Source: a virus
IMG/VR virus record: IMGVR_UViG_3300021171_000006
Coordinates: 1 to 64,000 of that record
Reading direction: 5' to 3' (one strand)
Length of the DNA stretch: 64,000 bases
Below are positions 20,208 to 64,000 of the stretch, one piece after another. Position numbers and translations under genes: made by a program. Every line of letters starts with the position of its first letter. The first letter of the stretch is position 1. The notes beneath the pieces were generated by a model. The model was not told the DNA's origin. It was given only the letters and a program-made list of their open reading frames with translations, and did no database searches.

Positions 20208-20281
20208 GGGGTACTCGTCCAATGGGAGGGCTCCTGTTTTGCAAGCAGGCAATCGGGGTTCGATTCCCCGGTACTCCACCA
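20208..20281 (+). tRNA. tRNA-Ala(TGC)
   Basis: Acceptor GGGGTAC/GTACTCC (one G-T), anticodon stem CCTGT/GCAGG with loop TTTGCAA, T-arm CGGGG TTCGATT CCCCG, encoded CCA. First tRNA of the array. Confidence 0.93.
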
Positions 20282-20285
20282 ATTC

Positions 20286-20359
20286 GCGGCCATCGTCTAA
20301 CGGCAAGACACGAGTCTGCCAGTCTCGGAATAGGGTTTCGACTACCCTTGGCCGCTCCA
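20286..20359 (+). tRNA. tRNA-Gly(GCC)
   Basis: Acceptor GCGGCCA/TGGCCGC perfect, anticodon loop CTGCCAG on a CGAGT/TCTCG stem with a T-T mismatch at the loop end, T-arm AGGGT TTCGACT ACCCT, encoded CCA. Confidence 0.9.
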
Positions 20360-20363
20360 ATAT

Positions 20364-20458
20364 GGGCGTCGGCTCTGGTGAGCGGGTGCGCCTTATAAGC
20401 GCGCGAGAGCGGGCGGACGGCCTGCAACGGTAGGGATCGTAACCCTAGACGCCTCCCA
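20364..20458 (+). tRNA. Class II tRNA, anticodon TAT by geometry
   Basis: Acceptor GGGCGTC/GACGCCT plus CCA; D-stem GCTC/GAGC with only a 4-base loop; anticodon stem TGCGC/GCGCG, loop CTTATAA; long variable arm with a 6-bp stem (GCGGGC/GCCTGC); T-stem TAGGG/CCCTA with loop ATCGTAA. Anticodon reads TAT (Ile, AUA), but a long variable arm is normal only for Ser, Leu and Tyr in bacteria, so identity is open. Confidence 0.6.
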
Positions 20459-20462
20459 TTTA

Positions 20463-20534
20463 TGCGGGTAGACCAAGGGTCCACTTAGGCTCATAACCTA
20501 GGAGGGGTCGGGGCAGTACCGACACCCGCAACCA
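20463..20534 (+). tRNA. tRNA-Met/Ile2 (CAT) with reduced loops
   Basis: Acceptor TGCGGGT/ACCCGCA perfect, anticodon stem TTAGG/CCTAG with loop CTCATAA, T-stem GTCGG/CCGAC. D-arm GACC-AAG-GGTC has a 3-base loop and the T-loop is GGCAGTA instead of TTCGA-type. CCA encoded. CAT could serve Met or, if modified to lysidine, Ile AUA. Confidence 0.75.
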
Positions 20535-20537
20535 TTC

Positions 20538-20613
20538 GCCCAGATAGCAAAGGTAGTCCTCGCGCGCCGTTGAAGGCGACGAAATCTTGGTGCGATCCCA
20601 AGTCTGGGCACCA
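20538..20613 (+). tRNA. tRNA-Phe(GAA)
   Basis: Acceptor GCCCAGA/TCTGGGC perfect, T-arm CTTGG TGCGATC CCAAG, encoded CCA. Anticodon stem CGCCG/CGACG has one mismatch with loop TTGAAGG, giving GAA. D-arm pairing is weak, so identity is a little less certain than for neighbours. Confidence 0.75.
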
Positions 20614-20614
20614 C

Positions 20615-20689
20615 GCGGCTATGACCGATTGGCAAAGGTCTCAGTCTTCCAAACTGAAGTTCCGGGTTCGATTCCCGGTAGCCGCTCCA
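20615..20689 (+). tRNA. tRNA-Gly(TCC)
   Basis: Acceptor GCGGCTA/TAGCCGC, anticodon arm TCAGT CTTCCAA ACTGA, T-arm CCGGG TTCGATT CCCGG, CCA encoded. Begins one base after the preceding tRNA. Confidence 0.93.
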
Positions 20690-20696
20690 GTTTCAT

Positions 20697-20774
20697 TGGC
20701 GGGTAGCACTCAGGGTGAGCGCGTCCGGCTGTTAACCGGAATTGAGGTCGGTTCGATCCCGACCCCGCCAGCCA
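20697..20774 (+). tRNA. tRNA-Asn(GTT)
   Basis: Acceptor TGGCGGG/CCCGCCA, anticodon arm TCCGG CTGTTAA CCGGA, T-arm GTCGG TTCGATC CCGAC, CCA encoded. Confidence 0.93.
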
Positions 20775-20776
20775 TT

Positions 20777-20844
20777 ACCGCCGCGATCCGGGATCAACGG
20801 AGCCTCCAAAACTCCGGATGAGGGTTCGACTCCTTCCGGCGGTG
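20777..20844 (+). tRNA. tRNA-Trp(CCA), short D-arm, no encoded CCA
   Basis: Acceptor ACCGCCG/CGGCGGT perfect; anticodon stem GGAGC/ACTCC (one mismatch), loop CTCCAAA; T-arm GAGGG TTCGACT CCTTC. D-arm GATC-CGG-GATC has a 3-base loop, so the molecule is only 68 bases; CTA follows where CCA would be. Confidence 0.8.
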
Positions 20845-20848
20845 CTAA

Positions 20849-20923
20849 GTCCCGATGGCAGAGCGGCAAATGCGCGGGTCTGCAAAACCCGTTACGCCGG
20901 TTCAACTCCGGCTCGGGACTCCA
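20849..20923 (+). tRNA. tRNA-Cys(GCA)
   Basis: Acceptor GTCCCGA/TCGGGAC, anticodon arm CGGGT CTGCAAA ACCCG, T-arm GCCGG TTCAACT CCGGC, CCA encoded. Confidence 0.93.
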
Positions 20924-20930
20924 GTTTGAT

Positions 20931-21005
20931 GGCGGGTATCGTCTAATGGTAGGACGGGAGATTGTGGATCTCCTAACGCGGGTTCGATCCCCGCTACTCG
21001 CCCCA
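20931..21005 (+). tRNA. tRNA-His(GTG)
   Basis: Acceptor GCGGGTA/TACTCGC with an extra 5' G(-1) at 20931 facing C73, the His identity pair; anticodon arm GGAGA TTGTGGA TCTCC; T-arm GCGGG TTCGATC CCCGC; CCA encoded. Confidence 0.95.
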
Positions 21006-21079
21006 GCCCGGTCAGCACGATGGCCGTGCAGCGGTCTTGTAAACCGCTGATGGGAGTTCGATCCTCTCACCGGGCACCA
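21006..21079 (+). tRNA. tRNA-Thr(TGT)
   Basis: Abuts the His tRNA without a spacer. Acceptor GCCCGGT/ACCGGGC, anticodon arm GCGGT CTTGTAA ACCGC, T-arm GGGAG TTCGATC CTCTC, CCA encoded. Confidence 0.93.
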
Positions 21080-21095
21080 GACAAGAGGAGGGGGT

Positions 21096-21281
21096 ATGAT
21101 GGTCAATCAGGACGACATTCGCCTTCTCCGGGAGATCACCGCGCGGCAGCGCGATGAGTTGATGGGGATTAGCACACCAGCTAGTGCATCGGTCTCTGAC
21201 ACCGAGGAATCCGGGGCGGCACCGGAATCCCCTTCCAACACAGACGGCGGGTTTTCGAGTGGCCTCGACGCGAGTCCTTGA
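21096..21281 (+). CDS. Small ORF inside tRNA array
   Basis: 61 residues behind a very strong ribosome site (AGAGGAGGGGG). Acidic, Ser/Ala-rich and probably disordered after a helical start (NQDDIRLLREITARQRDELM). Its last 36 bases overlap the 5' half of the tRNA-Gln gene. It separates 11 tRNAs upstream from 21 downstream. No family recognised. If translated, ribosomes would compete with folding or processing of that tRNA. Confidence 0.55.
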   Translation: MMVNQDDIRLLREITARQRDELMGISTPASASVSDTEESGAAPESPSNTDGGFSSGLDASP

Positions 21282-21320
21282 AATTCGTAGATCAGGGTTC
21301 GATCCCCTGGCCCGCTTCCA
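21246..21320 (+). tRNA. tRNA-Gln(TTG), C33
   Basis: Acceptor GGCGGGT/GCCCGCT with two G-T pairs, anticodon stem CGAGT/ATTCG, loop CCTTGAA (C rather than T at position 33), T-arm CAGGG TTCGATC CCCTG, CCA encoded. The 5' part overlaps the small ORF ending at 21281. Confidence 0.78.
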
Positions 21321-21396
21321 CGCTCCTTCGGCTACTGGCTAGGCCGCCACCCTCTCAAGGTGGAGAAGTCGGGATCGAAACCCACAGGAGCGACCA
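21321..21396 (+). tRNA. tRNA-Glu(CTC)
   Basis: Abuts the previous CCA. Acceptor CGCTCCT/AGGAGCG, anticodon arm CCACC CTCTCAA GGTGG, T-loop ATCGAAA on a weak 3-bp GGG/CCC stem, CCA encoded. Confidence 0.82.
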
Positions 21397-21402
21397 GTTT
21401 AT

Positions 21403-21477
21403 GCCCCGCTAGCCCAACTTGGTAGAGGCGCCTGATTTAGGATCAGGAGGTTCGGCGTTCGAGTCGCCGGCGGGGTA
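21403..21477 (+). tRNA. tRNA-Leu(TAG), class I body, no CCA
   Basis: Acceptor GCCCCGC/GCGGGGT, canonical D-loop (TTGGTAGAG), anticodon arm CCTGA TTTAGGA TCAGG, 5-base variable loop, T-arm CGGCG TTCGAGT CGCCG. Anticodon TAG reads CUA/CUG, yet the long variable arm of bacterial tRNA-Leu is absent. CCA is not encoded (CGG); the next tRNA begins two bases after position 73. Confidence 0.82.
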
Positions 21478-21478
21478 C

Positions 21479-21564
21479 GGAGGGCGCCGCTAAATGGCTG
21501 GCGACTGGTCCTGAAAACCAGGGTTTCCGAAAGGATAGGGGTTCGATTCCTCCGCCCTCCGCCA
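21479..21564 (+). tRNA. tRNA-Ser(TGA), C33
   Basis: Acceptor GGAGGGC/GCCCTCC, anticodon arm CTGGT CCTGAAA ACCAG (C at 33), class II variable arm with TTTCC...GGA pairing, T-loop TTCGATT, CCA encoded; 86 bases. Confidence 0.85.
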
Positions 21565-21569
21565 ATCAT

Positions 21570-21657
21570 GGAAGATGCTCGGGCTGGCTCCCGAAGCGGT
21601 TTGCTAAACCGTAGTGGCTCGCAAGGGCCAATGGTTCGACGCCATCATCTTCCGCCA
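21570..21657 (+). tRNA. tRNA-Ser(GCT)
   Basis: Acceptor GGAAGAT/ATCTTCC, anticodon arm GCGGT TTGCTAA ACCGT, long variable arm (TGGCTCGCAAGGGCCA), T-loop TTCGACG, CCA encoded; 88 bases. Confidence 0.9.
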
Positions 21658-21659
21658 CC

Positions 21660-21733
21660 GCCTTCGTAGCACAACAGCAGTGCGCCGCTTTGGTAAGGCG
21701 GAAATCCCGGAGCATCACCGGGCGAAGGCTCCA
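21660..21733 (+). tRNA. tRNA-Thr(GGT), noncanonical T-loop
   Basis: Acceptor GCCTTCG/CGAAGGC, D-stem GCAC/GTGC, anticodon arm CCGCT TTGGTAA GGCGG, T-stem CCCGG/CCGGG but T-loop AGCATCA, which lacks TTC. CCA encoded. Confidence 0.83.
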
Positions 21734-21734
21734 G

Positions 21735-21818
21735 CCGTGGTGAAACCGCGAGGCTGCGGAACGTGTCTGTAAAACACGGCCCTTCGGGGGAGCTGTTCGA
21801 TTCGGCCACCACGGACCA
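21735..21818 (+). tRNA. tRNA-Tyr(GTA)
   Basis: Acceptor CCGTGGT/ACCACGG, anticodon arm CGTGT CTGTAAA ACACG, class II variable arm (GCCCTTCGGGGGAGC), T-loop TTCGATT, CCA encoded. Confidence 0.93.
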
Positions 21819-21823
21819 ATTTT

Positions 21824-21899
21824 GCCGGCGTCTTCCAACGGCCAGGAAGCCCGCCCGATAAGCGGGTAACGTTCGGTTCGACTCCGACCGCCGGTCCCA
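21824..21899 (+). tRNA. tRNA-Ile(GAT), C33
   Basis: Acceptor GCCGGCG/CGCCGGT, anticodon arm CCCGC CCGATAA GCGGG (C at 33), T-loop TTCGACT, CCA encoded. Confidence 0.87.
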
Positions 21900-21903
21900 G
21901 TAT

Positions 21904-21977
21904 GGGCTCGTAATTCAATGGTAGAATAGCTGGCTCTTAACCAGCCCATGAGGGTTCGATTCCTTCCGGGCCTACCA
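21904..21977 (+). tRNA. tRNA-Lys(CTT)
   Basis: Acceptor GGGCTCG/CGGGCCT, anticodon arm GCTGG CTCTTAA CCAGC, T-arm GAGGG TTCGATT CCTTC, CCA encoded. Confidence 0.92.
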
Positions 21978-21980
21978 CTT

Positions 21981-22055
21981 GCGCCTGTCGCACTCTGGGA
22001 GTGCCGCCGCCTGTCTAGCGGATGCAGGAGGGTTCGATCCCCTTCGGGCGCGCCA
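21981..22055 (+). tRNA. tRNA-Asp(GTC)
   Basis: Acceptor GCGCCTG/CGGGCGC, D-stem GCAC/GTGC, anticodon loop CTGTCTA on CCGC/GCGG, T-loop TTCGATC, CCA encoded. Confidence 0.88.
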
Positions 22056-22056
22056 C

Positions 22057-22133
22057 CTGCGCGTTACGGTAGCGGCTAACCGCCCTGGTTTGGGACCAGG
22101 AATTCGGGGGTTCGAGTCCCTCCGCGCAGACCA
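22057..22133 (+). tRNA. tRNA-Pro(TGG)
   Basis: Acceptor CTGCGCG/CGCGCAG, anticodon arm CCTGG TTTGGGA CCAGG, T-loop TTCGAGT, CCA encoded. Confidence 0.92.
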
Positions 22134-22138
22134 TTTTC

Positions 22139-22210
22139 GCCCTTCTCAGCGGACCTGGGCGCGGGTTTCCTAAACCTGCTGACGCGGTTCGACTCCGCGG
22201 AGGGGCGCCA
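22139..22210 (+). tRNA. tRNA-Arg(CCT), short D-arm
   Basis: Acceptor GCCCTTC/GAGGGGC, anticodon arm CGGGT TTCCTAA ACCTG, T-arm CGCGG TTCGACT CCGCG, CCA encoded. Only 16 bases lie between acceptor and anticodon stem. Confidence 0.88.
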
Positions 22211-22213
22211 ATA

Positions 22214-22291
22214 CGGGGTGTAGCTCAGTCAGGCCAGAGTGTCCGGTTCGGAACCGGAAGATCGGTGGTTCAAATCCACCCACCCCGACCA
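22214..22291 (+). tRNA. tRNA-Pro(CGG)
   Basis: Fully canonical: acceptor CGGGGTG/CACCCCG, anticodon arm TCCGG TTCGGAA CCGGA, T-loop TTCAAAT, CCA encoded. Confidence 0.95.
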
Positions 22292-22295
22292 ATTT

Positions 22296-22369
22296 GCCTC
22301 GCTCGTCTAATGGTAGGGCCGCTGGCTTACATCCAGCAGATGGCGGTTCGATTCCGTCGCGAGGTACCA
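22296..22369 (+). tRNA. tRNA-Val(TAC)
   Basis: Acceptor GCCTCGC/GCGAGGT, anticodon arm GCTGG CTTACAT CCAGC, T-loop TTCGATT, CCA encoded. Confidence 0.92.
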
Positions 22370-22443
22370 CGCGCGGTCGTCTAAGGAAGGACACTTGCCT
22401 TTCAAGCAGGGTAACGCGGGTTCAAATCCCGTCCGCGCGACCA
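22370..22443 (+). tRNA. tRNA-Glu(TTC)
   Basis: Abuts tRNA-Val. Acceptor CGCGCGG/CCGCGCG, anticodon arm CTTGC CTTTCAA GCAGG, T-loop TTCAAAT, CCA encoded. Confidence 0.92.
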
Positions 22444-22447
22444 ACTC

Positions 22448-22519
22448 GCCCTCACCAGTGGATCTGGCTTGGTGGCTACGAACCACCTATGCGCGGTTCG
22501 ATTCCGTGTGGGGGCTCCA
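22448..22519 (+). tRNA. tRNA-Arg(ACG), compressed D-arm
   Basis: Acceptor GCCCTCA/TGGGGGC, anticodon arm GGTGG CTACGAA CCACC, T-arm CGCGG TTCGATT CCGTG, CCA encoded. D-arm CCAG-TGGAT-CTGG follows the acceptor directly, without positions 8-9. Confidence 0.88.
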
Positions 22520-22523
22520 TTCC

Positions 22524-22596
22524 GGGCTTAGCGCTGGGACGCGGGCGGGTCTTCTAAACTTGCCGACGCACGGTTCGATTCCGTGTAAGCCCACCA
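22524..22596 (+). tRNA. tRNA-Arg(TCT), short D-arm
   Basis: Acceptor GGGCTTA/TAAGCCC, anticodon arm CGGGT CTTCTAA ACTTG, T-arm CACGG TTCGATT CCGTG, CCA encoded. Only 15 bases between acceptor and anticodon stem. Confidence 0.88.
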
Positions 22597-22597
22597 T

Positions 22598-22669
22598 GCG
22601 CTCACCAGCGGATCTGGCGTCTGGCCTCCGAAGCCGGAATGCGGCGTTCGACTCGCCGTGGGCGCGCCA
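22598..22669 (+). tRNA. tRNA-Arg(CCG), compressed D-arm
   Basis: Acceptor GCGCTCA/TGGGCGC, anticodon arm CTGGC CTCCGAA GCCGG, T-loop TTCGACT, CCA encoded. D-arm CCAG-CGGAT-CTGG is nearly identical to that of tRNA-Arg(ACG), pointing to duplication. Confidence 0.9.
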
Positions 22670-22672
22670 TTT

Positions 22673-22749
22673 GGGCGCCTATGCAAATTGGCAAAGCAGT
22701 TTCGCTCAAAACGAAATGTATCAGGGTTCGACTCCCTGGGCGCCTACCA
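22673..22749 (+). tRNA. tRNA-Leu(CAA), class I body
   Basis: Acceptor GGGCGCC/GGCGCCT, anticodon arm TTTCG CTCAAAA CGAAA, 5-base variable loop, T-arm CAGGG TTCGACT CCCTG, CCA encoded. The Leu anticodon sits on a body without a long variable arm. Confidence 0.85.
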
Positions 22750-22750
22750 T

Positions 22751-22825
22751 GCCTCGCTGGTGTAACGGCAGCATATCCGGCTTTTAACCGGTAAGGACAG
22801 GGTTCGAATCCTTGGCGGGGTACCA
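22751..22825 (+). tRNA. tRNA-Lys(TTT)
   Basis: Acceptor GCCTCGC/GCGGGGT, anticodon loop CTTTTAA on CCGG/CCGG, T-loop TTCGAAT, CCA encoded. Confidence 0.9.
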
Positions 22826-22827
22826 TA

Positions 22828-22901
22828 GCTGGCGTAGCATAGCGGCAGTGCAGCCGGTTCGTACCCGGCCGACGCTGGTTCGAGTCCAGCCGCCAGCACC
22901 A
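22828..22901 (+). tRNA. tRNA-Thr(CGT)
   Basis: Acceptor GCTGGCG/CGCCAGC, anticodon arm GCCGG TTCGTAC CCGGC, T-arm GCTGG TTCGAGT CCAGC, CCA encoded. Last tRNA, 11 bases before the HNH gene. Confidence 0.93.
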
Positions 22902-56730: not shown

Positions 56731-56816
56731 TCTAAAATCTCCCCGCCGCCGCGATCTCTATTCCGGTGGGGACCGGCGACCGCCGGGGTGGGGCGGGAGA
56801 CGCGGCGGCGAGGGAG

Positions 56817-56844
56817 ATAATAAGCCACTTTGGTTGAATGTCAA
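56817..56844 (-). promoter_or_regulatory. Sigma70-type leftward promoter
   Basis: Reading leftward: -35 TTGACA (56844-56839), 16-base spacer, -10 TATTAT (56822-56817), that is 6/6 and 5/6 matches to consensus. It would start transcription near 56810, about 80 bases before the first gene of the leftward operon. The -35 is part of the GGTTGA-ATG-TCAACC palindrome. Confidence 0.75.
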
Positions 56845-56846
56845 CC
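56832..56846. promoter_or_regulatory. Operator palindrome OL candidate
   Basis: Perfect inverted repeat GGTTGA-ATG-TCAACC overlapping the leftward -35. A protein bound here would block the leftward promoter. A further ACTTTG (56827-56832) / CAAAGT (56864-56869) pair flanks the region. The XRE gene product at 56891 is the obvious candidate ligand. Confidence 0.6.
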
Positions 56847-56847
56847 G

Positions 56848-56876
56848 GGATGCTTGATTTTTTCAAAGTAGCATCC
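56848..56876. promoter_or_regulatory. Operator inverted repeat at rightward promoter
   Basis: GGATGCT (56848-56854) and AGCATCC (56870-56876), perfect 7-bp arms 15 bases apart, bracket the rightward -35; AGCAT-CCT-ATGCT (56870-56882) forms a second small palindrome over the -10. Likely autoregulatory site. Confidence 0.5.
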
Positions 56877-56882
56877 TATGCT
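56854..56882 (+). promoter_or_regulatory. Rightward promoter, probably leaderless
   Basis: -35 TTGATT (56854-56859), 17-base spacer, -10 TATGCT (56877-56882). The predicted start lies at about 56889-56891, at the ATG of the XRE gene, and no Shine-Dalgarno sequence precedes that ATG (CTCCTTCCCC), so the message would be leaderless. Confidence 0.55.
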
Positions 56883-56890
56883 CCTTCCCC

Positions 56891-57181
56891 ATGAGCGATA
56901 TCGGTATGTCTCCGGGCGAGGCGATGACCTTGGCGCGGCGTCGCCTCGGTCTGCCGCAAAAGGCTATAGCGGATATCTGGGGCGTCTCGACGGCATACGT
57001 CTCGGCGGTGGAAACTGGCGACAAACGATTCCCGAGAGAGAGGGTGGCCAATCTGCCCATCGAAATCCGGCGCGAGATTGTGACGGCGCTGATCGCCGAT
57101 CACGAGCGCGCTATCGCAGAATTGCGCGAGTTGGTCGCCGAGGGCGGCCTTGAACCCGTCCAGTTGGAGGCTGGCGACTAA
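56891..57181 (+). CDS. XRE-family regulator (repressor candidate)
   Basis: 96 residues. HTH at residues ~9-55: AMTLARRRLGLPQKAIADIW, GVSTAYVSAVETGDKRFPRE. C-terminal helix (IADHERAIAELRELVAEGG) may dimerise. No peptidase (LexA-type) domain. Position beside palindromic operators between divergent promoters suggests it controls the early switch; autoregulation likely through the repeats over its own promoter. Confidence 0.8.
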   Translation: MSDIGMSPGEAMTLARRRLGLPQKAIADIWGVSTAYVSAVETGDKRFPRERVANLPIEIRREIVTALIADHERAIAELRELVAEGGLEPVQLEAGD

Positions 57182-57192
57182 GGAGAAAACAG

Positions 57193-57576
57193 ATGGCACG
57201 CACACGCAAACGGAAAAACGGCGCGGACGCGGAATGGGGCGACGATAGCGGCGAATCTCCGCCGACCGATCACAACGCAAAAAGCCGCGCGGAGACAATT
57301 CAGCACTGCTGTCGTGAGATCACAAATCTGGAAGCCGAGCGGTCTTCGATCAGCGAGCAGGTTCGCGAGATCAAGCAGATCCGCATCAAGGGCGAACTCG
57401 GTATGAAGATTGGCGATTTTAACGCCGCCCTACGCTTATACGCGCTCGAAGGCGATGATCGCGATCAGTTCTTCGACAGGCTCCGGGAAACGTTCGAAGC
57501 CCTCGGCGTGGGAGCACAACTCGATTTCATCGATGCGTTGCGGGGCGAGGCCGAACATGCTGATCGCGGGGATTGA
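57193..57576 (+). CDS. GapR-like nucleoid protein
   Basis: 127 residues; disordered basic start, then AETIQHCCREITNLEAERSS, ISEQVREIKQIRIKGELG and FNAALRLYALEGDDRDQFFD. The helix-turn layout (long coiled helix, 'i.e.ik.i...ak.kG', then a second helix) matches GapR/DUF2312 proteins, which clamp overtwisted DNA ahead of replication in Alphaproteobacteria. The C-terminal extension (LREGFEALG-like) is a common phage variant. Sits 12 bases after the XRE gene. Confidence 0.65.
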   Translation: MARTRKRKNGADAEWGDDSGESPPTDHNAKSRAETIQHCCREITNLEAERSSISEQVREIKQIRIKGELGMKIGDFNAALRLYALEGDDRDQFFDRLRETFEALGVGAQLDFIDALRGEAEHADRGD

Positions 57577-58099
57577 TCCCGGGCTGTCCGGCGCCATCGC
57601 TCTGCGGGATACCGACGACGGCAGCATGAGGGTGGTGGACATCCCCACCTTCTCGCTGTCGCGTAACGGCAAGAACAAGCGAGAGATCGACGCCGTAACG
57701 CTGTCGATCATGCTCGACCTGTCTATCGGACATGCCTTTGTCGAGCAGGTCGGCGCAATGCCACATCAGGGCGTCTCTGGCGTGTTCGCCTTCGGTAAAT
57801 CCTACGGCATCATCATCGGCGTTCTGGCGGCTCGTGGTGTGCCGATGACTTTCGTCAATCCTCGGGTGTGGAAGAAGTCTCTAGGTGTGCCGGCAGCAAA
57901 GGATGGTGCTCGTGCGAGGGCTTCACAATTGATGCCGTCGAGCGCGGAGTGGTGGACGCGGGTGAAAGATGACGGGCGCGCCGAGGCTGCATTGATCGCG
58001 TATTGGGGCATCCGCTCGCTCGCTGGCATTGGAAAGACGATGCCGGCCAAACTAGCCCCGCCGCACAAGCTGGGGCCGCTCTTCGCCGAGAGGTCGTGA
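57557..58099 (+). CDS. RuvC-like Holliday junction resolvase
   Basis: 180 residues from ATG 57557. RNase H-fold signature: IAGIDPGLSGAIAL (D7), HAFVEQVGAMP (E63), and DDGRAEAALIAYW (D138/D139, E143) provide the acidic metal-binding set. Likely cuts branched recombination or replication intermediates before packaging. Overlaps the GapR-like gene by 20 bases and the next by TGATG. Confidence 0.85.
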   Translation: MLIAGIDPGLSGAIALRDTDDGSMRVVDIPTFSLSRNGKNKREIDAVTLSIMLDLSIGHAFVEQVGAMPHQGVSGVFAFGKSYGIIIGVLAARGVPMTFVNPRVWKKSLGVPAAKDGARARASQLMPSSAEWWTRVKDDGRAEAALIAYWGIRSLAGIGKTMPAKLAPPHKLGPLFAERS

Positions 58100-58368
58100 T
58101 GAACTTCGCCCCCGTCACGACGAAAGCCGACCTGATGACGCTTGATCCCGACGAGATCACGGCGGGGTACATGGATGCGCAACGAGGTGATCCCGAACCC
58201 GGCGTTAACCGGGGGCGCGCCTATTGGCACGGCTGGCGGAATCGAATGATGGATCTCGGCGAGATCGAGATCGACGCAGGCCATCGCCGACTTGTTCACG
58301 AGATCGCGCCGAATGGCGTGTTCGACGACGAGGTGGTCGGGCGGCGCAGCGAGAGAGTGCGACGGTGA
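58099..58368 (+). CDS. Hypothetical early protein
   Basis: 89 residues: LDPDEITAGYMDAQRGDPEP and RGRAYWHGWRNRMMDLGE. The 'G..dg..G...p.......AYwhGwrnG' layout is common in alphaproteobacterial phages and faintly recalls ribosome modulation factor; function unknown. Confidence 0.6.
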   Translation: MNFAPVTTKADLMTLDPDEITAGYMDAQRGDPEPGVNRGRAYWHGWRNRMMDLGEIEIDAGHRRLVHEIAPNGVFDDEVVGRRSERVRR

Positions 58369-58640
58369 TGCCCTACGCCGTCGGCGAGACAGTTCGCATC
58401 GACTTCCCCGCAGACGAGTGGCATGGCCGCGCGGTCGAGGTCGTGCGCGATGATCCGGCGGTCGAGGTCGGGCACGAGGACGGCACCAGCATGATCGCTC
58501 GGGTGATATTCGTCCGGGGCCCCGGTATCCCGCATGCGGTGGGTTTCCACGCCTCTCACATAGCCGGGACGGTGGAGGCTCAGCAGCGCCGGCGGTGGGA
58601 TGCTGAGGGTGACGATCGACAGGGAATGCTCGGATTATGA
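58368..58640 (+). CDS. Small beta-barrel-like protein
   Basis: 90 residues: VGETVRIDFPADEWHGRAVE, GTSMIARVIFVRGPGIPHA. The 'G..V.i....W.G..g.V' start resembles short SH3-like folds seen in phage early proteins. Start within TGATG. Confidence 0.55.
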   Translation: MPYAVGETVRIDFPADEWHGRAVEVVRDDPAVEVGHEDGTSMIARVIFVRGPGIPHAVGFHASHIAGTVEAQQRRRWDAEGDDRQGMLGL

Positions 58641-58993
58641 ACTCGGGAGCCTGGAATGCCGAATCCATCGCCCGCCTTAAGGATCTGGTCGAGGCCGGAG
58701 AGGCGAGCTTTAAAGAGATCGGCCAGGAGATGGGCCTATCGAAAAACATCGTCATCGGGAAGGCGCGGCGGGAGGGGTTTGTCGGGCCTAAAACGCTCGG
58801 CCCTCGGGACGATGGTGTCCTGACCCTCACGCAGCGCTTGGACGCTCTTGATGTGTTCCCCGGACCTCGGAAGTGCGTGTTCCCGATCGGGCACCCGAGA
58901 GCGCCCAATTTCCATTTCTGCGCCGCGCGGGCGGATGAAGGGGCGCCCTACTGCCCAGAGCATCGGCGGATCGCGCTGGTGAAGGTGCTGTGA
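58637..58993 (+). CDS. gcrA-like: GcrA-family cell-cycle regulator
   Basis: 118 residues with the GcrA plan: N-terminal HTH WNAESIARLKDLVEAGEASF, EIGQEMGLSKNIVIGKARRE, and C-terminal sigma-factor-binding block KCVFPIGHPRAPNFHFCAAR, GAPYCPEHRRIA. Known GcrA binds sigma70 domain 2 and activates promoters containing methylated GANTC sites. A phage copy could redirect host polymerase to phage promoters or shift the host cycle. Followed at 59453 by a DNA methyltransferase. Overlaps neighbours by four bases. Confidence 0.88.
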   Translation: MNSGAWNAESIARLKDLVEAGEASFKEIGQEMGLSKNIVIGKARREGFVGPKTLGPRDDGVLTLTQRLDALDVFPGPRKCVFPIGHPRAPNFHFCAARADEGAPYCPEHRRIALVKVL

Positions 58994-59271
58994 GCGACCT
59001 TTTCGGCAACCCCGTCATCCCTGACGGCCCCGCGATGACGCCCGCCGAGCGACGACAGGCGCTCCGTAAGGAGCCGAAGCCGAACGGGTACGCCGCACCT
59101 CCGGGGAGCGGACCCGCTGGAGAGACCTGCGGATCGTGCCGCAACCATACCGTCGTCAGGTACGCCAAGACCTACCACAAGTGCGAACTGACCCGGCAGG
59201 GGTGGACAGGCGGTCGGGCGACGGACATCCTCGTGCGGTCGCCGGCGTGTAGCCAGTGGGAGGCGAAATGA
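58990..59271 (+). CDS. CxxC early protein
   Basis: 93 residues, GTG start: MTPAERRQALRKEPKPNGYA, ETCGSCRNHTVVRYAKTYHK, CELTRQGWTGG, SPACSQWE. The Cys set C-x2-C ... H-x-C ... C suggests a zinc ribbon; a frequent small protein in alphaproteobacterial phages. Overlaps both neighbours. Confidence 0.7.
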   Translation: MSDLFGNPVIPDGPAMTPAERRQALRKEPKPNGYAAPPGSGPAGETCGSCRNHTVVRYAKTYHKCELTRQGWTGGRATDILVRSPACSQWEAK

Positions 59272-59456
59272 TCGAGGTTCGCCGCTGCCGGGTATCAGCC
59301 GATTGGACGATGCGCAAAGACGGCACGCCCGGAAGCTCCAAGACCACGCTGACCTACTGGCGCGTCCTTGTGGACGGGAGGATCGTGGACAGCTTCCTCG
59401 ACCAGAAGCGGGCAGAGGCGAGGGCGGCTGAGTTGCGCGGGGAGGATGCGGCATGA
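59268..59456 (+). CDS. Small hypothetical protein
   Basis: 62 residues from ATG 59268: beta-like KTTLTYWRVLVDGRIVDSFL and a helical tail (QKRAEARAAELRG). Unknown. Overlaps both neighbours by four bases. Confidence 0.6.
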   Translation: MIEVRRCRVSADWTMRKDGTPGSSKTTLTYWRVLVDGRIVDSFLDQKRAEARAAELRGEDAA

Positions 59457-60205
59457 GCGTTCGCGTCGAGCATATCGGCGATGCGACTCTCTATCTCGGG
59501 GATTGCCAAGAATTGCTGCCTCGGTTCGATGGGGACGTAGCGGTCGTCGCAGATCCGCCCTATGGGATTTGGTTTCGGCATTCTGGCTGCGGCAACCAGT
59601 TCCCGGTCGATCGCGGGGGACGCAAATCGCGCGTGCCACGCTTCGCAAAAATATCAATAGTCGGTGACAAGGAGGGTTGCGATCCGGGACCGATGCTACG
59701 CTTCGAAGAGGTAATCATCTGGGGAGCCAATCACTTCGCCGACCAGCTTCCGGCATCCTCGCGCTGGCTCGTCTGGGACAAACGTGACGGAATGGCCTCA
59801 AATACCTTCTCCGACTGCGAGTTGGCGTGGTGCAAAAAGCCTGGCGCAGCGCGACTCATCCACTACCTGTGGAACGGCATTTGCCGTGCCGGCGAGAAAG
59901 AATCTCGCGTCCATCCGATGCAGAAACCGATAGAGGTCATGGCGTGGTCGATCGGATTCACCGCCGGCGACACCATTTGTGACCCCTTCATGGGCTCCGG
60001 CACAACCGGCGTCGCCGCACTGCGTCTTGGCCGCAAATTCATCGGCATCGAGATCGATGAGCGCTGGTTCGATATCGCCTGTCGCCGCATCGAGGCCGAA
60101 GCGCGACAAGGGCGGCTGGACATTCCCGAGATTGCGCAGCGCCCTCCCCCGAGGGAAGATCCGGTGCCGCCGCTCTTGGCCGCGATGGAGGGGGATGGGG
60201 AATGA
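59453..60205 (+). CDS. Beta-class DNA methyltransferase
   Basis: 250 residues. Catalytic motif IV DPPY at 34-37 precedes the SAM-binding motif DPFMGSGTTG (177-186), the order of beta-class N6-adenine/N4-cytosine enzymes; HPMQKP and IGIEIDERWFDIA are further family motifs. It lacks the C-terminal DNA-binding domain of CcrM (about 350 residues), so GANTC specificity cannot be assumed. May protect phage DNA or create GcrA-responsive sites. No paired nuclease seen. Confidence 0.88.
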   Translation: MSVRVEHIGDATLYLGDCQELLPRFDGDVAVVADPPYGIWFRHSGCGNQFPVDRGGRKSRVPRFAKISIVGDKEGCDPGPMLRFEEVIIWGANHFADQLPASSRWLVWDKRDGMASNTFSDCELAWCKKPGAARLIHYLWNGICRAGEKESRVHPMQKPIEVMAWSIGFTAGDTICDPFMGSGTTGVAALRLGRKFIGIEIDERWFDIACRRIEAEARQGRLDIPEIAQRPPPREDPVPPLLAAMEGDGE

Positions 60206-60300
60206 GCAAGGGCAGCGAGGCCGTCAATGCCCTCTTGAGGGACGCCAAGGCGACACAGGCCGCAATCCCCTCATATTGTGTCTTAATGGAGAAGCGCTGA
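60202..60300 (+). CDS. 32-residue ORF carrying the 19-bp repeat
   Basis: Starts within the methyltransferase stop (ATGA): KGSEAVNALLRDAKATQAAI followed by PSYCVLMEKR. The SYCVLME end is encoded by the 19-bp repeat shared with 40364-40382. Unknown function. Confidence 0.45.
   Translation: MSKGSEAVNALLRDAKATQAAIPSYCVLMEKR
60274..60292. repeat. 19-bp direct repeat, copy 2
   Basis: Exact copy of 40364-40382, at the 3' end of a 32-residue ORF and again read as YCVLME. Both copies sit in small ORFs just before another gene. Confidence 0.7.
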
Positions 60301-60321
60301 TGCGCGGTCGCGGGTGCGCGA

Positions 60322-60573
60322 ATGAAATCTCTCAATGATCTTACGCCCGCCGCCCTACGAGCGGCCCTGACTGGCGGGACGGAGTCATGGGGCCAATGGG
60401 GTTCAGCCGATCAGCACGTTCGCTATGTTCAGCCCGCGCCCGCTACCGTCAGGCGTCGCTGTCATTGCGGATGCAAGCGGCGAGCGTCCCATAGCGGCAT
60501 GGCGAATGGTGTCTGCCTCACAATGGGATGCGAATTATCCATGAGGCGATGGGTCGCCGATCCTCACCGTTAA
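60322..60573 (+). CDS. Small Cys-rich hypothetical protein
   Basis: 83 residues: LNDLTPAALRAALTGGTESW, RRRCHCGCKRRASHSGM, VCLTMGCELS. Cys cluster could bind zinc. Weak ribosome site; a start further up is not available. Confidence 0.5.
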   Translation: MKSLNDLTPAALRAALTGGTESWGQWGSADQHVRYVQPAPATVRRRCHCGCKRRASHSGMANGVCLTMGCELSMRRWVADPHR

Positions 60574-60658
60574 CAAGTAATTGTAAGGGGAATCCATGCG
60601 CGGCTTGCCGGAGTGAGCCGGTGCCCGAGTTCTTCCTACCCATTGATGGGAATAAGCG

Positions 60659-61438
60659 ATGAGCGACACGGTTCTGAGGCTAGCCGATCACCGACCGAAG
60701 CCCGAAAACGAGCCGCCAGCATGGGAATACCTGCCGTGCGCGCTGATCGTCGTTCATGGCATCGCGTGGGAGGAGTGGGTCTCGCTTTGGAACACGGTCG
60801 AGCAGCTGGACAAAAGCTCGAAATGGTACGTCGGCGACGCTCTCCTTGCGGGCCAGCGGGAGTTCAACGAGCGATTCTCCCAGGTGGTTGATGCGCAATA
60901 TATCCACCAGCAACGCGGGGCGCTGTGGGTATCGAGCCGCATTCCGCCGGCCGAACGTCGCGAAGGGTTGAGTTGGTCCGTCCACCGAGAGGCTGCAAGT
61001 CTCTCCCCGGCCCGGCGGAAGAAGATGCTCGACCTGGCCGAAGCAAACGGCTGGGGCTCGAAGGAGGTCATCGAGGAGATCAACCGGCGCTACCCCGATG
61101 CCCGGCAGAAGCACGCCCCACGGAAGCAGAGTGAAATGTTCCAGGTGGAACAATCCGAGTTAGATGCGGGATCAACCGATAAGCCGCGCCATGTTCATGT
61201 GCTGGATGAAGTGAGCGATCGCGACCCGATGACCCTGGACGAGGCGGTGGACCTTCTCACCAATTTGCCCGTGGGGGCCTTGCCGGACAACATCACGGAA
61301 GCGATTGCGCTGGTGCTGGACGAGCGGGCGAAGCTGCTCCGGGTGCTCGCGGTGGCGCGGGAGACCGTGTTGCAATACCACCTGCCCGACTTGGCTGCGG
61401 CGGTCGAGGCGCTGGAAACCCCTCATATCGTAACTTAA
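60659..61438 (+). CDS. Replication/partition-associated DNA-binding candidate
   Basis: 259 residues. EEWVSLWNTVEQLDKSSKWY, VGDALLAGQREFNERFSQVV, GLSWSVHREAASLSPARRKK, MLDLAEANGWGSKEVIEEIN. This 'W..G..L......W.lGDwL..g' plus 'LSWshHaEVA.L...er...L..A...gws..eLr..v' pattern recurs in plasmid and phage replication/partition accessory proteins with an HTH-like core. The coding sequence also contains the parS-like repeat at 61135-61152. ATG lies 10 bases after GGGAATAAG. Confidence 0.6.
   Translation: MSDTVLRLADHRPKPENEPPAWEYLPCALIVVHGIAWEEWVSLWNTVEQLDKSSKWYVGDALLAGQREFNERFSQVVDAQYIHQQRGALWVSSRIPPAERREGLSWSVHREAASLSPARRKKMLDLAEANGWGSKEVIEEINRRYPDARQKHAPRKQSEMFQVEQSELDAGSTDKPRHVHVLDEVSDRDPMTLDEAVDLLTNLPVGALPDNITEAIALVLDERAKLLRVLAVARETVLQYHLPDLAAAVEALETPHIVT
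61135..61152. repeat. parS-like near-palindrome, copy 2
   Basis: Same 18 bp as 13839-13856 but read in another codon frame (encodes FQVEQ-type residues), so the match is at DNA rather than protein level. Lies in the gene at 60659, a partition/replication-type candidate. Confidence 0.7.
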
Positions 61439-61453
61439 ACGGAACCCATCCTC

Positions 61454-61864
61454 ATGCTGTGTCCAAAATGCGGCGCGCCAGTTTATCCCTCAGCACCCGA
61501 TGGTGATTTCCGTTATCGGCCGCCTCCGGCACGCAAGATTACAGGAAAGACAAGCGATGGCTACCATACGTTCGATGAACTGTACGAGCATCGGCACGCC
61601 CTGTTCATAACCCTTTGCCGCACCGTCGCGCGCGAACTATCAGATGAGCGTGTTGTCCGATCCCAACATCACTACGATGGAACCATGATCAACGGGTGGT
61701 TCATTCTTATGATCGATGGTGATCGAAGAGGCGAGCAGATTTCCTATCATCTGCCTCTGCGTCTTTGGGACCAAACGAATTTCGCAAATACGCTTGATCG
61801 AGCACCTGATTGGGATGGGCATTTGTCACAAGATGTGCTCGCGCGTCTTGCGGTTCTCCGTTAA
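61454..61864 (+). CDS. Conserved phage protein (WDGHLSxDVLxRL type)
   Basis: 136 residues: N-terminal CPKCGAPVYP half-ribbon, then SDGYHTFDELYEHRHALFIT, LCRTVARELSDERVVRSQHH, GWFILMIDGDRRGEQISYHL, WDGHLSQDVLARL. This is a layout I recognise as a widely spread phage protein of unknown function. A 15-residue ORF (61882-61929) and a Trp-rich 32-residue ORF follow. Confidence 0.7.
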   Translation: MLCPKCGAPVYPSAPDGDFRYRPPPARKITGKTSDGYHTFDELYEHRHALFITLCRTVARELSDERVVRSQHHYDGTMINGWFILMIDGDRRGEQISYHLPLRLWDQTNFANTLDRAPDWDGHLSQDVLARLAVLR

Positions 61865-61925
61865 GCAAGGCAGGACGGCTTGTGGCGCAGGGGAAGAAGC
61901 ACGGCATTATCCACCCGGCGAGCGA

Positions 61926-62024
61926 ATGATGAAACCTCATCCAGATTGGCAACTTGACCCACTTAAGGGCATGTGGTGGGCCACGCTTTTCTTCCGCGTA
62001 TGGTTTTGGGTCGACCGGAGATGA
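61926..62024 (+). CDS. Small Trp-rich peptide
   Basis: 32 residues (ATGATG; second ATG at 61929 possible): HPDWQLDPLKGMWWATLFFR followed by VWFWVDRR. Could be membrane-associated. Its TGA overlaps the next start. Confidence 0.4.
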   Translation: MMKPHPDWQLDPLKGMWWATLFFRVWFWVDRR

Positions 62025-62200
62025 TGGACGATCACTTCATTCTCAGTGCGGCGCGCAATCACCTTGCCGATGCGCTCAAAGCGTTGTTGGTTGCGGACAC
62101 CATGACAGAGAGAGACTTCCGTGCCGCTCGGTGGTCTGCGCGAGAAGCAATCGAGAAACTTGATGTTCTGCTACGCGAGTCGGACGGGCACCGGACGTAA
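62021..62200 (+). CDS. Small helical protein
   Basis: 59 residues: FILSAARNHLADALKALLVA, ERDFRAARWSAREAIEKLDV. Overlaps the previous stop (ATGATGA-type). Unknown function. Confidence 0.5.
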   Translation: MMDDHFILSAARNHLADALKALLVADTMTERDFRAARWSAREAIEKLDVLLRESDGHRT

Positions 62201-62846
62201 CTTGGCCGCGCTTCGGGCGCACGGCTGGGGTCTTCTGGTCTCTCGGGCCGGTGTCTGGCGCACTGAGGGCTTTGAGCGGTGGGGTTCCGACAATGGCGCG
62301 TGGGCAGATTTCCAGGCTGGACGCAGTTTTGATGAGGATGCTTACGAGCACTTTCTCGATTGGGTTGGCGCTCAACCGGTTCATCCTGATTGGATCGTGC
62401 TCCCTGATATTGTGGCAGGCGGTCTTCCGTCGCTGAGGCTGTCGATGCGCTACCTCAACCGGTGTTTGTCGCTGGCGCCGCTTGTGCTGATCGCTGTCCA
62501 GGACGGCATGGAGACGACCGATCTCGCGGCCTTAGTTGGGACCGCCGTCGGGGTCTTCCTCGGCGGCTCGACGGAATGGAAGTTGGCGACGATGCGCGCC
62601 TGGGGCGAGTTCTGCGCCGAGCGCGGCATCCACTACCACGTCGCTCGCGTCAACAGCACCAAACGGATGAACCTCGCGGCTAGCTGTGGGACTCAATCGG
62701 TCGATGGCTCCTCGGTCAGCCGCTACGCCGTGACCTGCCCGAAACTGACTTCGGCATCGCGACAAGCCGATCTTTGGTCGCCGCGCCGCGTCGTCGACAA
62801 CGGCATTGTCCACCCGCCGCTACAAAGCGATGGAGCCGAAACTTAA
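62163..62846 (+). CDS. DpdA/TGT-like transglycosylase candidate
   Basis: 227 residues from ATG 62163 (62121 possible). FCYASRTGTGRNLAALRAHG, GSDNGAWADFQAGRSFDEDA, DWIVLPDIVAGGLPSLRLSM, LIAVQDGMETTDLAAL, VGVFLGGSTEWKLATM, YHVARVNSTKRMNLAASCGT, SVDGSSVSRYAVT. The order of strands and Asp/Gly motifs parallels TIM-barrel guanine transglycosylases of the TGT/DpdA2 type, which insert 7-deazaguanines into tRNA or DNA; the zinc Cys motif is not seen. No precursor-synthesis genes are in the window. The 202 bases after it hold only weak short ORFs (62856, 62881, 62930). Confidence 0.5.
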   Translation: MFCYASRTGTGRNLAALRAHGWGLLVSRAGVWRTEGFERWGSDNGAWADFQAGRSFDEDAYEHFLDWVGAQPVHPDWIVLPDIVAGGLPSLRLSMRYLNRCLSLAPLVLIAVQDGMETTDLAALVGTAVGVFLGGSTEWKLATMRAWGEFCAERGIHYHVARVNSTKRMNLAASCGTQSVDGSSVSRYAVTCPKLTSASRQADLWSPRRVVDNGIVHPPLQSDGAET

Positions 62847-63048
62847 TCTTTTACGTGAAGGGGAAAGCCGCTGGCCCGTCATGCCTCTGCAGCAAGGGGT
62901 CTTGACGATGCGGCGGCGGCGGGAGCACGATGCGTCTCCCGAACGAAGTCACCCGGCCGCGAGGGCCAGGTGCTGCTTCTAGGGGATCGAGGGGCCAAAG
63001 CCGCGTGGGGTCGGCAGAGGCCGGGACACAACGAAGGACGAGTTCGTT

Positions 63049-63408
63049 ATGCCAGACACCGAAGTAACCTTTCCCGATCAAAAAATCAAGTCGCATCATC
63101 ATCTGCGCCACGACTTCGATTGGGCGTCTCGCCCCGAGCCGTGGAATTGGATCGGGCCGCAGTTCCGCGCCGAGTGCGAGAGGATCGGGCCGCGCGTCGA
63201 GATCAAGGCTCCGCCCCGGTGGAAGGAGATCAAGCGGCGGCGCGAGGCCTTGGGCATGTCGCAACTCGATTTGGCTCGGGAAGCGAAGTGTCGCCAGCCC
63301 GTATTGTCCAATATCGAATTGAACAGAGGCGGCAATCCCTCTGCAGCGGCGGCTACGGTTCGCGTCCTCTCGGCTCTCGACCGGATCGAGAAGGAGCCAA
63401 CACCGTGA
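63049..63408 (+). CDS. XRE-family regulator
   Basis: 119 residues. HTH in the C-terminal half: WKEIKRRREALGMSQLDLAR, EAKCRQPVLSNIELNRGGNP, VRVLSALDRIE. The N-terminal ~60 residues (HHHLRHDFDWASRPEPWNW) are unlike standard regulators and may bind a partner. Stop overlaps the next GTG. Confidence 0.75.
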   Translation: MPDTEVTFPDQKIKSHHHLRHDFDWASRPEPWNWIGPQFRAECERIGPRVEIKAPPRWKEIKRRREALGMSQLDLAREAKCRQPVLSNIELNRGGNPSAAAATVRVLSALDRIEKEPTP

Positions 63409-63641
63409 GCGCCTGGGTCTCTGCCGCCGATGAGGCAAAGCGTAGGCTGACCCCCCGGCCAGGAGCCTCGCCTTTGGTCGAGCCGGAAAGCACCGTCGAT
63501 GAGGTATTCGCTGTGCTCGCCGAACCCGATGGCGACATGATCCGCGCAGGCATGCGGGCTCTCGCAGACGAAGGGCGCCAGGCTACGGCCCGACAAATTG
63601 TCCTTGCCGTTTGGGAAGCAATGCTGAGGGCCGCGTCGTGA
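63405..63641 (+). CDS. Small hypothetical protein before dnaA-like gene
   Basis: 78 residues, GTG start: SAADEAKRRLTPRPGASPLV, DEVFAVLAEPDGDMIRAGMR, ATARQIVLAVWEAMLRAAS. Helical; the second half resembles a short HTH-like bundle. Overlaps both neighbours by four bases, so probably works with one of them. Confidence 0.55.
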   Translation: MSAWVSAADEAKRRLTPRPGASPLVEPESTVDEVFAVLAEPDGDMIRAGMRALADEGRQATARQIVLAVWEAMLRAAS

Positions 63642-64000
63642 TCGAGGGCCAGCACATCACCCTCCGCGAACTCAAGGAGTTGGTGAGAACGGCGCGCATT
63701 GCCATTGATGCGGCCGCCCCCAAGATCATCGACATTCAGCAAGCCGTTGCCGAGGCGTTTGGTATCCGGCTCATCGACATGACGTCTGCACGCCGCGCCC
63801 GGTCGGTAGCTCGCCCCCGCCAGGTCGCGATGTACCTCGCCCGGCAGCTGACGCTTAAATCCCTCCCGCAGATCGGTCGAGCCTTCGGCGACCGTGACCA
63901 CACGACAGTGATGCACGCGATCAAACAGGTGGAGATCCTGGCCTCTCTCGACCCGGACTTCGGCGAGCGCATCGTCATCCTGCGCGAGCGTCTCGGGGTA
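63638..64000 (+). CDS. DnaA domain IV protein (runs off right edge)
   Basis: GTG at 63638 opens a frame to the window end (121 residues so far). Residues ~49-100 match the DNA-binding domain of DnaA: TSARRARSVARPRQVAMYLA, LTLKSLPQIGRAFGDRDHTT followed by VMHAIKQVE, including the DHTTVMHA signature (from D87) that reads DnaA boxes. No ATPase domain precedes it. Such proteins could occupy or block host DnaA boxes or help phage origin recognition. Confidence 0.88.
   Translation, partial: MIEGQHITLRELKELVRTARIAIDAAAPKIIDIQQAVAEAFGIRLIDMTSARRARSVARPRQVAMYLARQLTLKSLPQIGRAFGDRDHTTVMHAIKQVEILASLDPDFGERIVILRERLGV

Follow-up and report, generated by a model that had tools for sequence, protein, structure and literature searches.

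Does one gene block of a viral DNA record encode a matched set of cell-cycle regulators, or a group of regulatory proteins with separate histories? The window analyzed here comprises bases 1-64000 of the 91,353-base IMG/VR record IMGVR_UViG_3300021171_000006, and in an earlier note four genes of its rightward arm were read as relatives of GapR, GcrA, the DNA methyltransferase CcrM and DnaA, which together could redirect sigma70-GcrA transcription, methylation and origin firing. The genes are present where that note had placed them, all on the + strand. Two parts of the proposed set stand, namely a GcrA-family co-activator and a DnaA-box-binding domain, and two do not, the CcrM-like enzyme and GapR. 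The reading that we favor, with somewhat better than even confidence, is that small DNA-binding regulators were acquired independently: a GcrA-type co-activator, a competitor for DnaA boxes that would act mainly at host DNA, and a protective methyltransferase.

The GcrA-family protein (58637..58993, + strand) is a compact, two-domain protein of 118 amino acids. It matched PF07750 with 65.3 bits (1.1e-17; the cut-off is 26.9 bits), with profile positions 2-50 accounting for the N-terminal DNA-binding domain, and matches to GcrA structures in the PDB were found in both domains (7ye1, 3.6e-10; 5yix, 1.6e-6). The DNA-binding domain spans approximately residues 5-53 and is followed by a short linker and a C-terminal sigma70-interaction domain (approximately residues 75-114), in which the conserved Cys/His pattern is present. 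For an AlphaFold2 model built from 18 window and contig sequences (predicted local distance difference test score, pLDDT, of 82), Foldseek returned 7ye1 as the top match (7e-5), and the sigma70-interaction and DNA-binding domains of the model superimposed on 5yix and 5yiu, respectively, with a root-mean-square deviation of 1.4 Å each. The assignment to the GcrA family is thus well founded. The score against the NCBI GcrA equivalog NF050816 was 52 bits, far below the cut-off of 280 bits, so the protein is a relative of GcrA and not an orthologue; single-sequence scans found no close relatives of it. Because both working domains are retained, binding to GANTC and sigma70 can be predicted. As judged from sequence and model, the N-terminal domain most likely binds methylated GANTC-type sites, and the C-terminal domain most likely holds domain 2 of sigma70. 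The outcome would be activation of a subset of promoters or competition with host GcrA for sigma70.

The DnaA-related gene (63638..64000, + strand) runs to 64024, 24 bases beyond the window, and encodes a free-standing DnaA domain IV of 128 amino acids. The domain call was borne out by a PF08299 match of 104 bits (3e-30) and by an alignment with domain IV of Escherichia coli DnaA (1j1v; 9e-23) that extends over 81 residues without gaps. The equivalents of E. coli R399, R407, P423, D433, H434 and T435, which are residues that contact the DnaA box, are all kept. Among 70 free-standing copies from other phages, D433 and R407 are present in every one, H434 in 68, R399 in 66 and T435 in 64. The full DnaA initiator model reached 111 bits (cut-off, 344 bits) and aligned at positions 322-436 only, with the AAA+ domain III and its ATPase absent. 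Such a protein would most likely bind DnaA boxes without ATP control or oligomerization. It would thus act as a competitor or a transcription factor at host DnaA boxes, so that host initiation would be delayed or deregulated; a role as a binder of the phage's own origin is less favored.

This preference is supported by the sites on the phage DNA itself. Inside the O-like gene that follows (record positions 64458-64544), four exact copies of GTTGACAC occur within 87 base pairs (bp), three of them with a spacing of 22-23 bp. The interior of the O-like gene is the classic location of a lambdoid origin, and the iterons are very likely the phage's own origin. No DnaA box was found at these iterons. 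Because the origin has iterons of its own, a competitor or regulator at host boxes is a likelier role for the DnaA domain IV protein than that of a phage origin factor. A host-directed or regulatory role also fits better because the same domain is carried by Mu-like phages, which replicate by transposition: it was present in the early regions, together with DUF3164/GemA, in 5 of 50 records (L021, L023, L016, L062 and L071).

The earlier note had proposed a check of phage promoters for enrichment in DnaA boxes or GANTC sites. The number of DnaA boxes was at chance (16 vs. 15 expected), and the result for GANTC was the opposite of enrichment, with 115 sites in the window and 317 expected from dinucleotide frequencies. 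Twenty-two of these 115 sites lie in the block of transfer RNA (tRNA) genes at 20208-22901, 12 only are intergenic, and the divergent promoter region at 56731-56905 contains none. Within genes, the deficit persisted under synonymous-codon shuffling (79 vs. 116, z -4.6). The deficit suggests a CcrM-type host. GANTC counts were below half in 74 of 80 DnaA domain IV loci and 17 of 19 GcrA loci, vs. 14 of 80 mixed-host resolvase loci, a comparison in which the GC (guanine plus cytosine) content differs between the groups (0.60 vs. 0.44). Our negative site results agree with the report that GcrA and DnaA sites are without positional asymmetry in phage genomes (PMC9437464). As a separate observation, strong GANTC depletion was near-universal in the contigs that carry DnaA domain IV or GcrA (L010-L108) and could serve to predict CcrM-bearing alphaproteobacterial hosts.

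The methyltransferase (59453..60205, + strand; 250 amino acids) is, as had been proposed, a beta-class N6/N4 DNA methyltransferase (PF01555, 3e-18; phrog_67, 1e-36), with motif IV (DPPYG, near residue 35) preceding motif I (DPFMGSGTT, near residue 174). Kinship with CcrM was not found beyond the general beta-class fold: the score against the CcrM equivalog was 56 bits with a cut-off of 830 bits, there is no full-length similarity, and the alignment stops at CcrM residue 255-260, leaving ~35 residues of the phage enzyme. Because so few residues remain after the match, the enzyme lacks a CcrM-type C-terminal DNA-recognition domain. Its relatives were found in 547 phage records (from Mycobacterium, Staphylococcus, Flavobacterium, Gordonia and other hosts), many of them outside Alphaproteobacteria. 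The best relative, with 46% identity, is in a Nostoc phage, and a search for relatives in genomes gave only distant matches that indicated no host. The enzyme most likely protects phage DNA.

The identification of the first of the four genes (57193..57576, + strand; a small helical protein of 127 amino acids) as GapR was not confirmed, and membership in that family is unproven. The GapR model PF10073 gave no match at an E-value of 0.1, whereas it recognizes true phage GapRs at ~1e-33. Alignment with 37 phage GapRs by hhalign gave a probability of 21% over 80 collinear columns, which is above shuffled sequences and inside the range of helical controls. A low-confidence structure model comprised one long and two short helices, for which Foldseek returned no match, and single-sequence scans revealed no close relatives. 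The one positive indication is the position of the gene directly upstream of a resolvase gene. In contig L206, a true GapR gene (PF10073, 4e-28) ends directly before a resolvase of the same family, as does a diverged GapR gene (6e-10) in L192/L193, so that this comparison is based on two independent relatives only. Judged by this slot, the protein is probably a very diverged DNA-coating protein of the GapR type. A GcrA candidate in L206 was rejected, as it contained a helix-turn-helix only, without the sigma-interaction motif.

DnaA domain IV, GapR and GcrA each recur in the early regions of alphaproteobacterial phages. Relatives of the DnaA domain IV protein were present in 278 IMG/VR contigs, from which we examined the 80 best loci and set aside 10 that contain a Walker A motif, as they might encode full-length DnaA. 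In the fetched flanks of the remaining 70 loci, GapR was found at 27, two-domain GcrA at 7 and the methyltransferase family at 17. GcrA was counted only when the sigma-interaction motif was present; a count of 23 of 70 from an iterated GcrA profile was discarded, as that profile picked up helix-turn-helix-only proteins. All four types occurred within the fetched flanks of two contigs (L053 and L087), and GcrA, DnaA domain IV and GapR in two more (L094 and L104); where regulator genes co-occur, they are neighbors, 0.4-2.3 kilobases (kb) apart. The base rates come from a set of 30 records, each 20 kb or longer and picked by an unrelated terminase, of which 13 carried DnaA domain IV, 5 GapR and 5 GcrA. 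GapR was present in 3 of the 13 records with DnaA domain IV vs. 2 of the 17 others, and GcrA in 1 of 13 vs. 4 of 17, so co-occurrence of the three among these 30 phages did not exceed independence. Because the base rates show no association, the combination of genes in the window can be regarded as expected mosaicism.

How do these results bear on the possible explanations? That a matched GcrA-CcrM-DnaA-GapR set jointly redirects transcription, methylation and origin firing, as the earlier note had it, is improbable. The GcrA-family and methyltransferase genes do lie in one string of overlapping genes, and the four contigs named above hold all four types or three of them. However, the methyltransferase belongs to a family that is general across phages of many hosts and is without the CcrM C-terminal domain, GapR could not be demonstrated, GANTC is depleted, DnaA boxes are at chance, and unselected phages show no association at the level of records. 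A doubtful but possible alternative is that the GcrA-type and DnaA domain IV proteins serve the phage's own program, the former in a switch from early to middle promoters, the latter in the regulation of phage promoters or in helicase loading at the origin. This would be in line with the position of the DnaA domain IV gene directly upstream of the O-like initiator and with the location of these genes in the replication or early region of related phages. It is at odds with the scarcity of sites, as DnaA boxes are neither enriched nor present at the O iterons and GANTC is missing from the early divergent control region and rare between genes, and with the presence of DnaA domain IV in Mu-like phages that have no such origin. 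It is very improbable that the two genes are merely neutral pieces of host origin with no particular function: the distance of their sequences from the host orthologues would fit this view, but the reading frames are intact, the operon is tight, the base-contact and cysteine motifs are kept across divergent phages, and the genes recur in hundreds of contigs.

Independent acquisition of small, mainly host-directed regulators is therefore the explanation that we retain, and several observations weigh against it. The recognition region of the compact GcrA reads SKNIVIGK, vs. TRNAVIGK, which is common in its relatives. GANTC depletion may follow host composition only, and the DnaA domain IV protein could serve a phage promoter with non-consensus boxes. 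The 27 GapR genes in the flanks of the 70 DnaA domain IV loci, 16 of which start at most 1.4 kb downstream, hint that the association of the two may exceed independence. A tentative and rather doubtful generalization would be that alphaproteobacterial phages recurrently assemble, in their early region, stripped-down DNA-binding proteins of host replication and the cell cycle (DnaA domain IV, GapR and GcrA) that jointly stop or retime initiation of the host chromosome, a strategy common to origin-replicating and Mu-like phages. For the window itself, a role directed at the host is a reasonable reading for each protein taken singly, and nothing ties the GcrA-type protein, DnaA domain IV and the methyltransferase into one circuit.

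The surrounding genes are arranged in a lambda-like layout. The leftward arm, in the opposite orientation, encodes RecT-like, exonuclease and HNH proteins, and the rightward string begins at 56906 and continues beyond the window end. Between them, the divergent control region contains a leftward sigma70-like promoter (56817..56844, - strand; TTGACA-16-TATTAT, 11/12), which rests on a consensus match, the total count of such sites being equal to that in shuffles. The genes at 57193-60205 overlap one another by 1-20 bases, and because of these overlaps they probably form one transcript. The single early operon of the earlier note is hence plausible as an operon, and its early timing would follow from the layout. 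Most likely, these genes make up the early operon of the rightward arm in a lambda-like phage whose host would be a GANTC-methylating alphaproteobacterium. Of the genes that follow, those within the window are all on the + strand. The first encodes an XRE family helix-turn-helix (XRE/HTH) protein in a Cro/repressor-like position (56906..57181; PF13560, 1e-5, just under the cut-off). The GapR-like gene overlaps by 20 bases with the gene for a RuvC-like Holliday junction resolvase (57557..58099; phrog_1770, 3e-30), and the latter by 1 base with a small gene (58099..58368). A second small gene (58368..58640) overlaps by 4 bases with the GcrA gene; for neither of these gene models were relatives found. 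Gene models for a 93-amino-acid protein (58990..59271) and a 62-amino-acid protein (59268..59456; 4-base overlap at each end) precede the methyltransferase gene. Farther downstream are an LmbU-family-like transcription regulator below the family cut-off (60659..61438; NF038070, 5.8e-19, 68.7 vs. 125 bits), a phrog_15826 protein (62163..62846; 3e-42) that has a relative in the GcrA-carrying contig L107 (2e-70) and no PDB match, and a second XRE/HTH protein (63049..63408; PF01381, 2e-6). Beyond the replication genes, the record encodes a DUF1643 protein (65665-66390), a serine recombinase (67184-67798) and, unusually for a phage, an insulinase-type peptidase in which both M16 domains are present (74827-76086), directly followed by a DnaJ-domain protein (76079-76726). 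The record carries 25 tRNA genes, and no close DNA relatives of it were found among phages.

Phage GcrA, GapR and CcrM-like enzymes have so far been reported singly. In the literature searched, we found no description of the repeated occurrence of DnaA domain IV as a separate protein in phages of the alphaproteobacterial type, where GapR is often and GcrA at times encoded nearby, and nothing on phage GcrA together with GapR or on PRK06030. This recurrence poses a simple question about the way in which phages deal with the cell cycle of their hosts: can a DnaA-box binder without an ATPase shut off host initiation?

When the window proteins are compared with known systems, the GcrA-family protein shares the DNA-binding and sigma70-interaction domains of Caulobacter GcrA (7ye1, 5yix and 5yiu), on which it superimposes at 1.4 Å, but its linker is much shortened (118 vs. 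173 amino acids in total) and its equivalog score is low. A GcrA homologue, gp222, is encoded by a phiCbK-like Caulobacter phage (PMC3556154); both are phage-borne members of the family with a proposed action on host cell-cycle transcription, whereas the 118-residue window protein has a much shorter linker and is encoded near DnaA domain IV, in an operon of lambda-like type within a record of 91 kb. The methyltransferase has the beta-class amino-methyltransferase fold in common with CcrM and with the CcrM-like enzyme of phiLM21 (as cited in PMC12429752; CcrM-like enzymes of Sinorhizobium phages are likewise cited in PMC9437464), but differs from CcrM in lacking the C-terminal domain and full-length similarity. 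GapR has been reported in Erythrobacter phage R34L1 (PMC12185513), and GcrA and UPF0335 in phiLM21-like prophages (PMC12429752). The GapR-like protein resembles GapR/UPF0335 (PF10073) in its helical character, size and slot, the last as in L206 and L192/L193, but is not recognized by the family model. Proteins of the PRK06030 type (NF004686-NF004688) are, like the window protein, small and contain DnaA domain IV without an AAA+ domain; the window protein falls under the PRK06030 cut-offs and is nearer to canonical DnaA domain IV. Bradyrhizobium phages ppBeUSDA76-2 and ppBjS10J-1 also carry a stand-alone DnaA domain IV, adjoining a DUF2312 (GapR) gene within ~1 kb, and in contrast to these and the PRK06030-type proteins, that of the window phage is followed by an O-like initiator. 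In Synechococcus phage Ssp-JY42 (PP438432), as in the window, GcrA-family and DnaA C-terminal proteins share an operon, ~4 kb apart, although the operon of that phage contains no GapR match and the neighboring genes differ.

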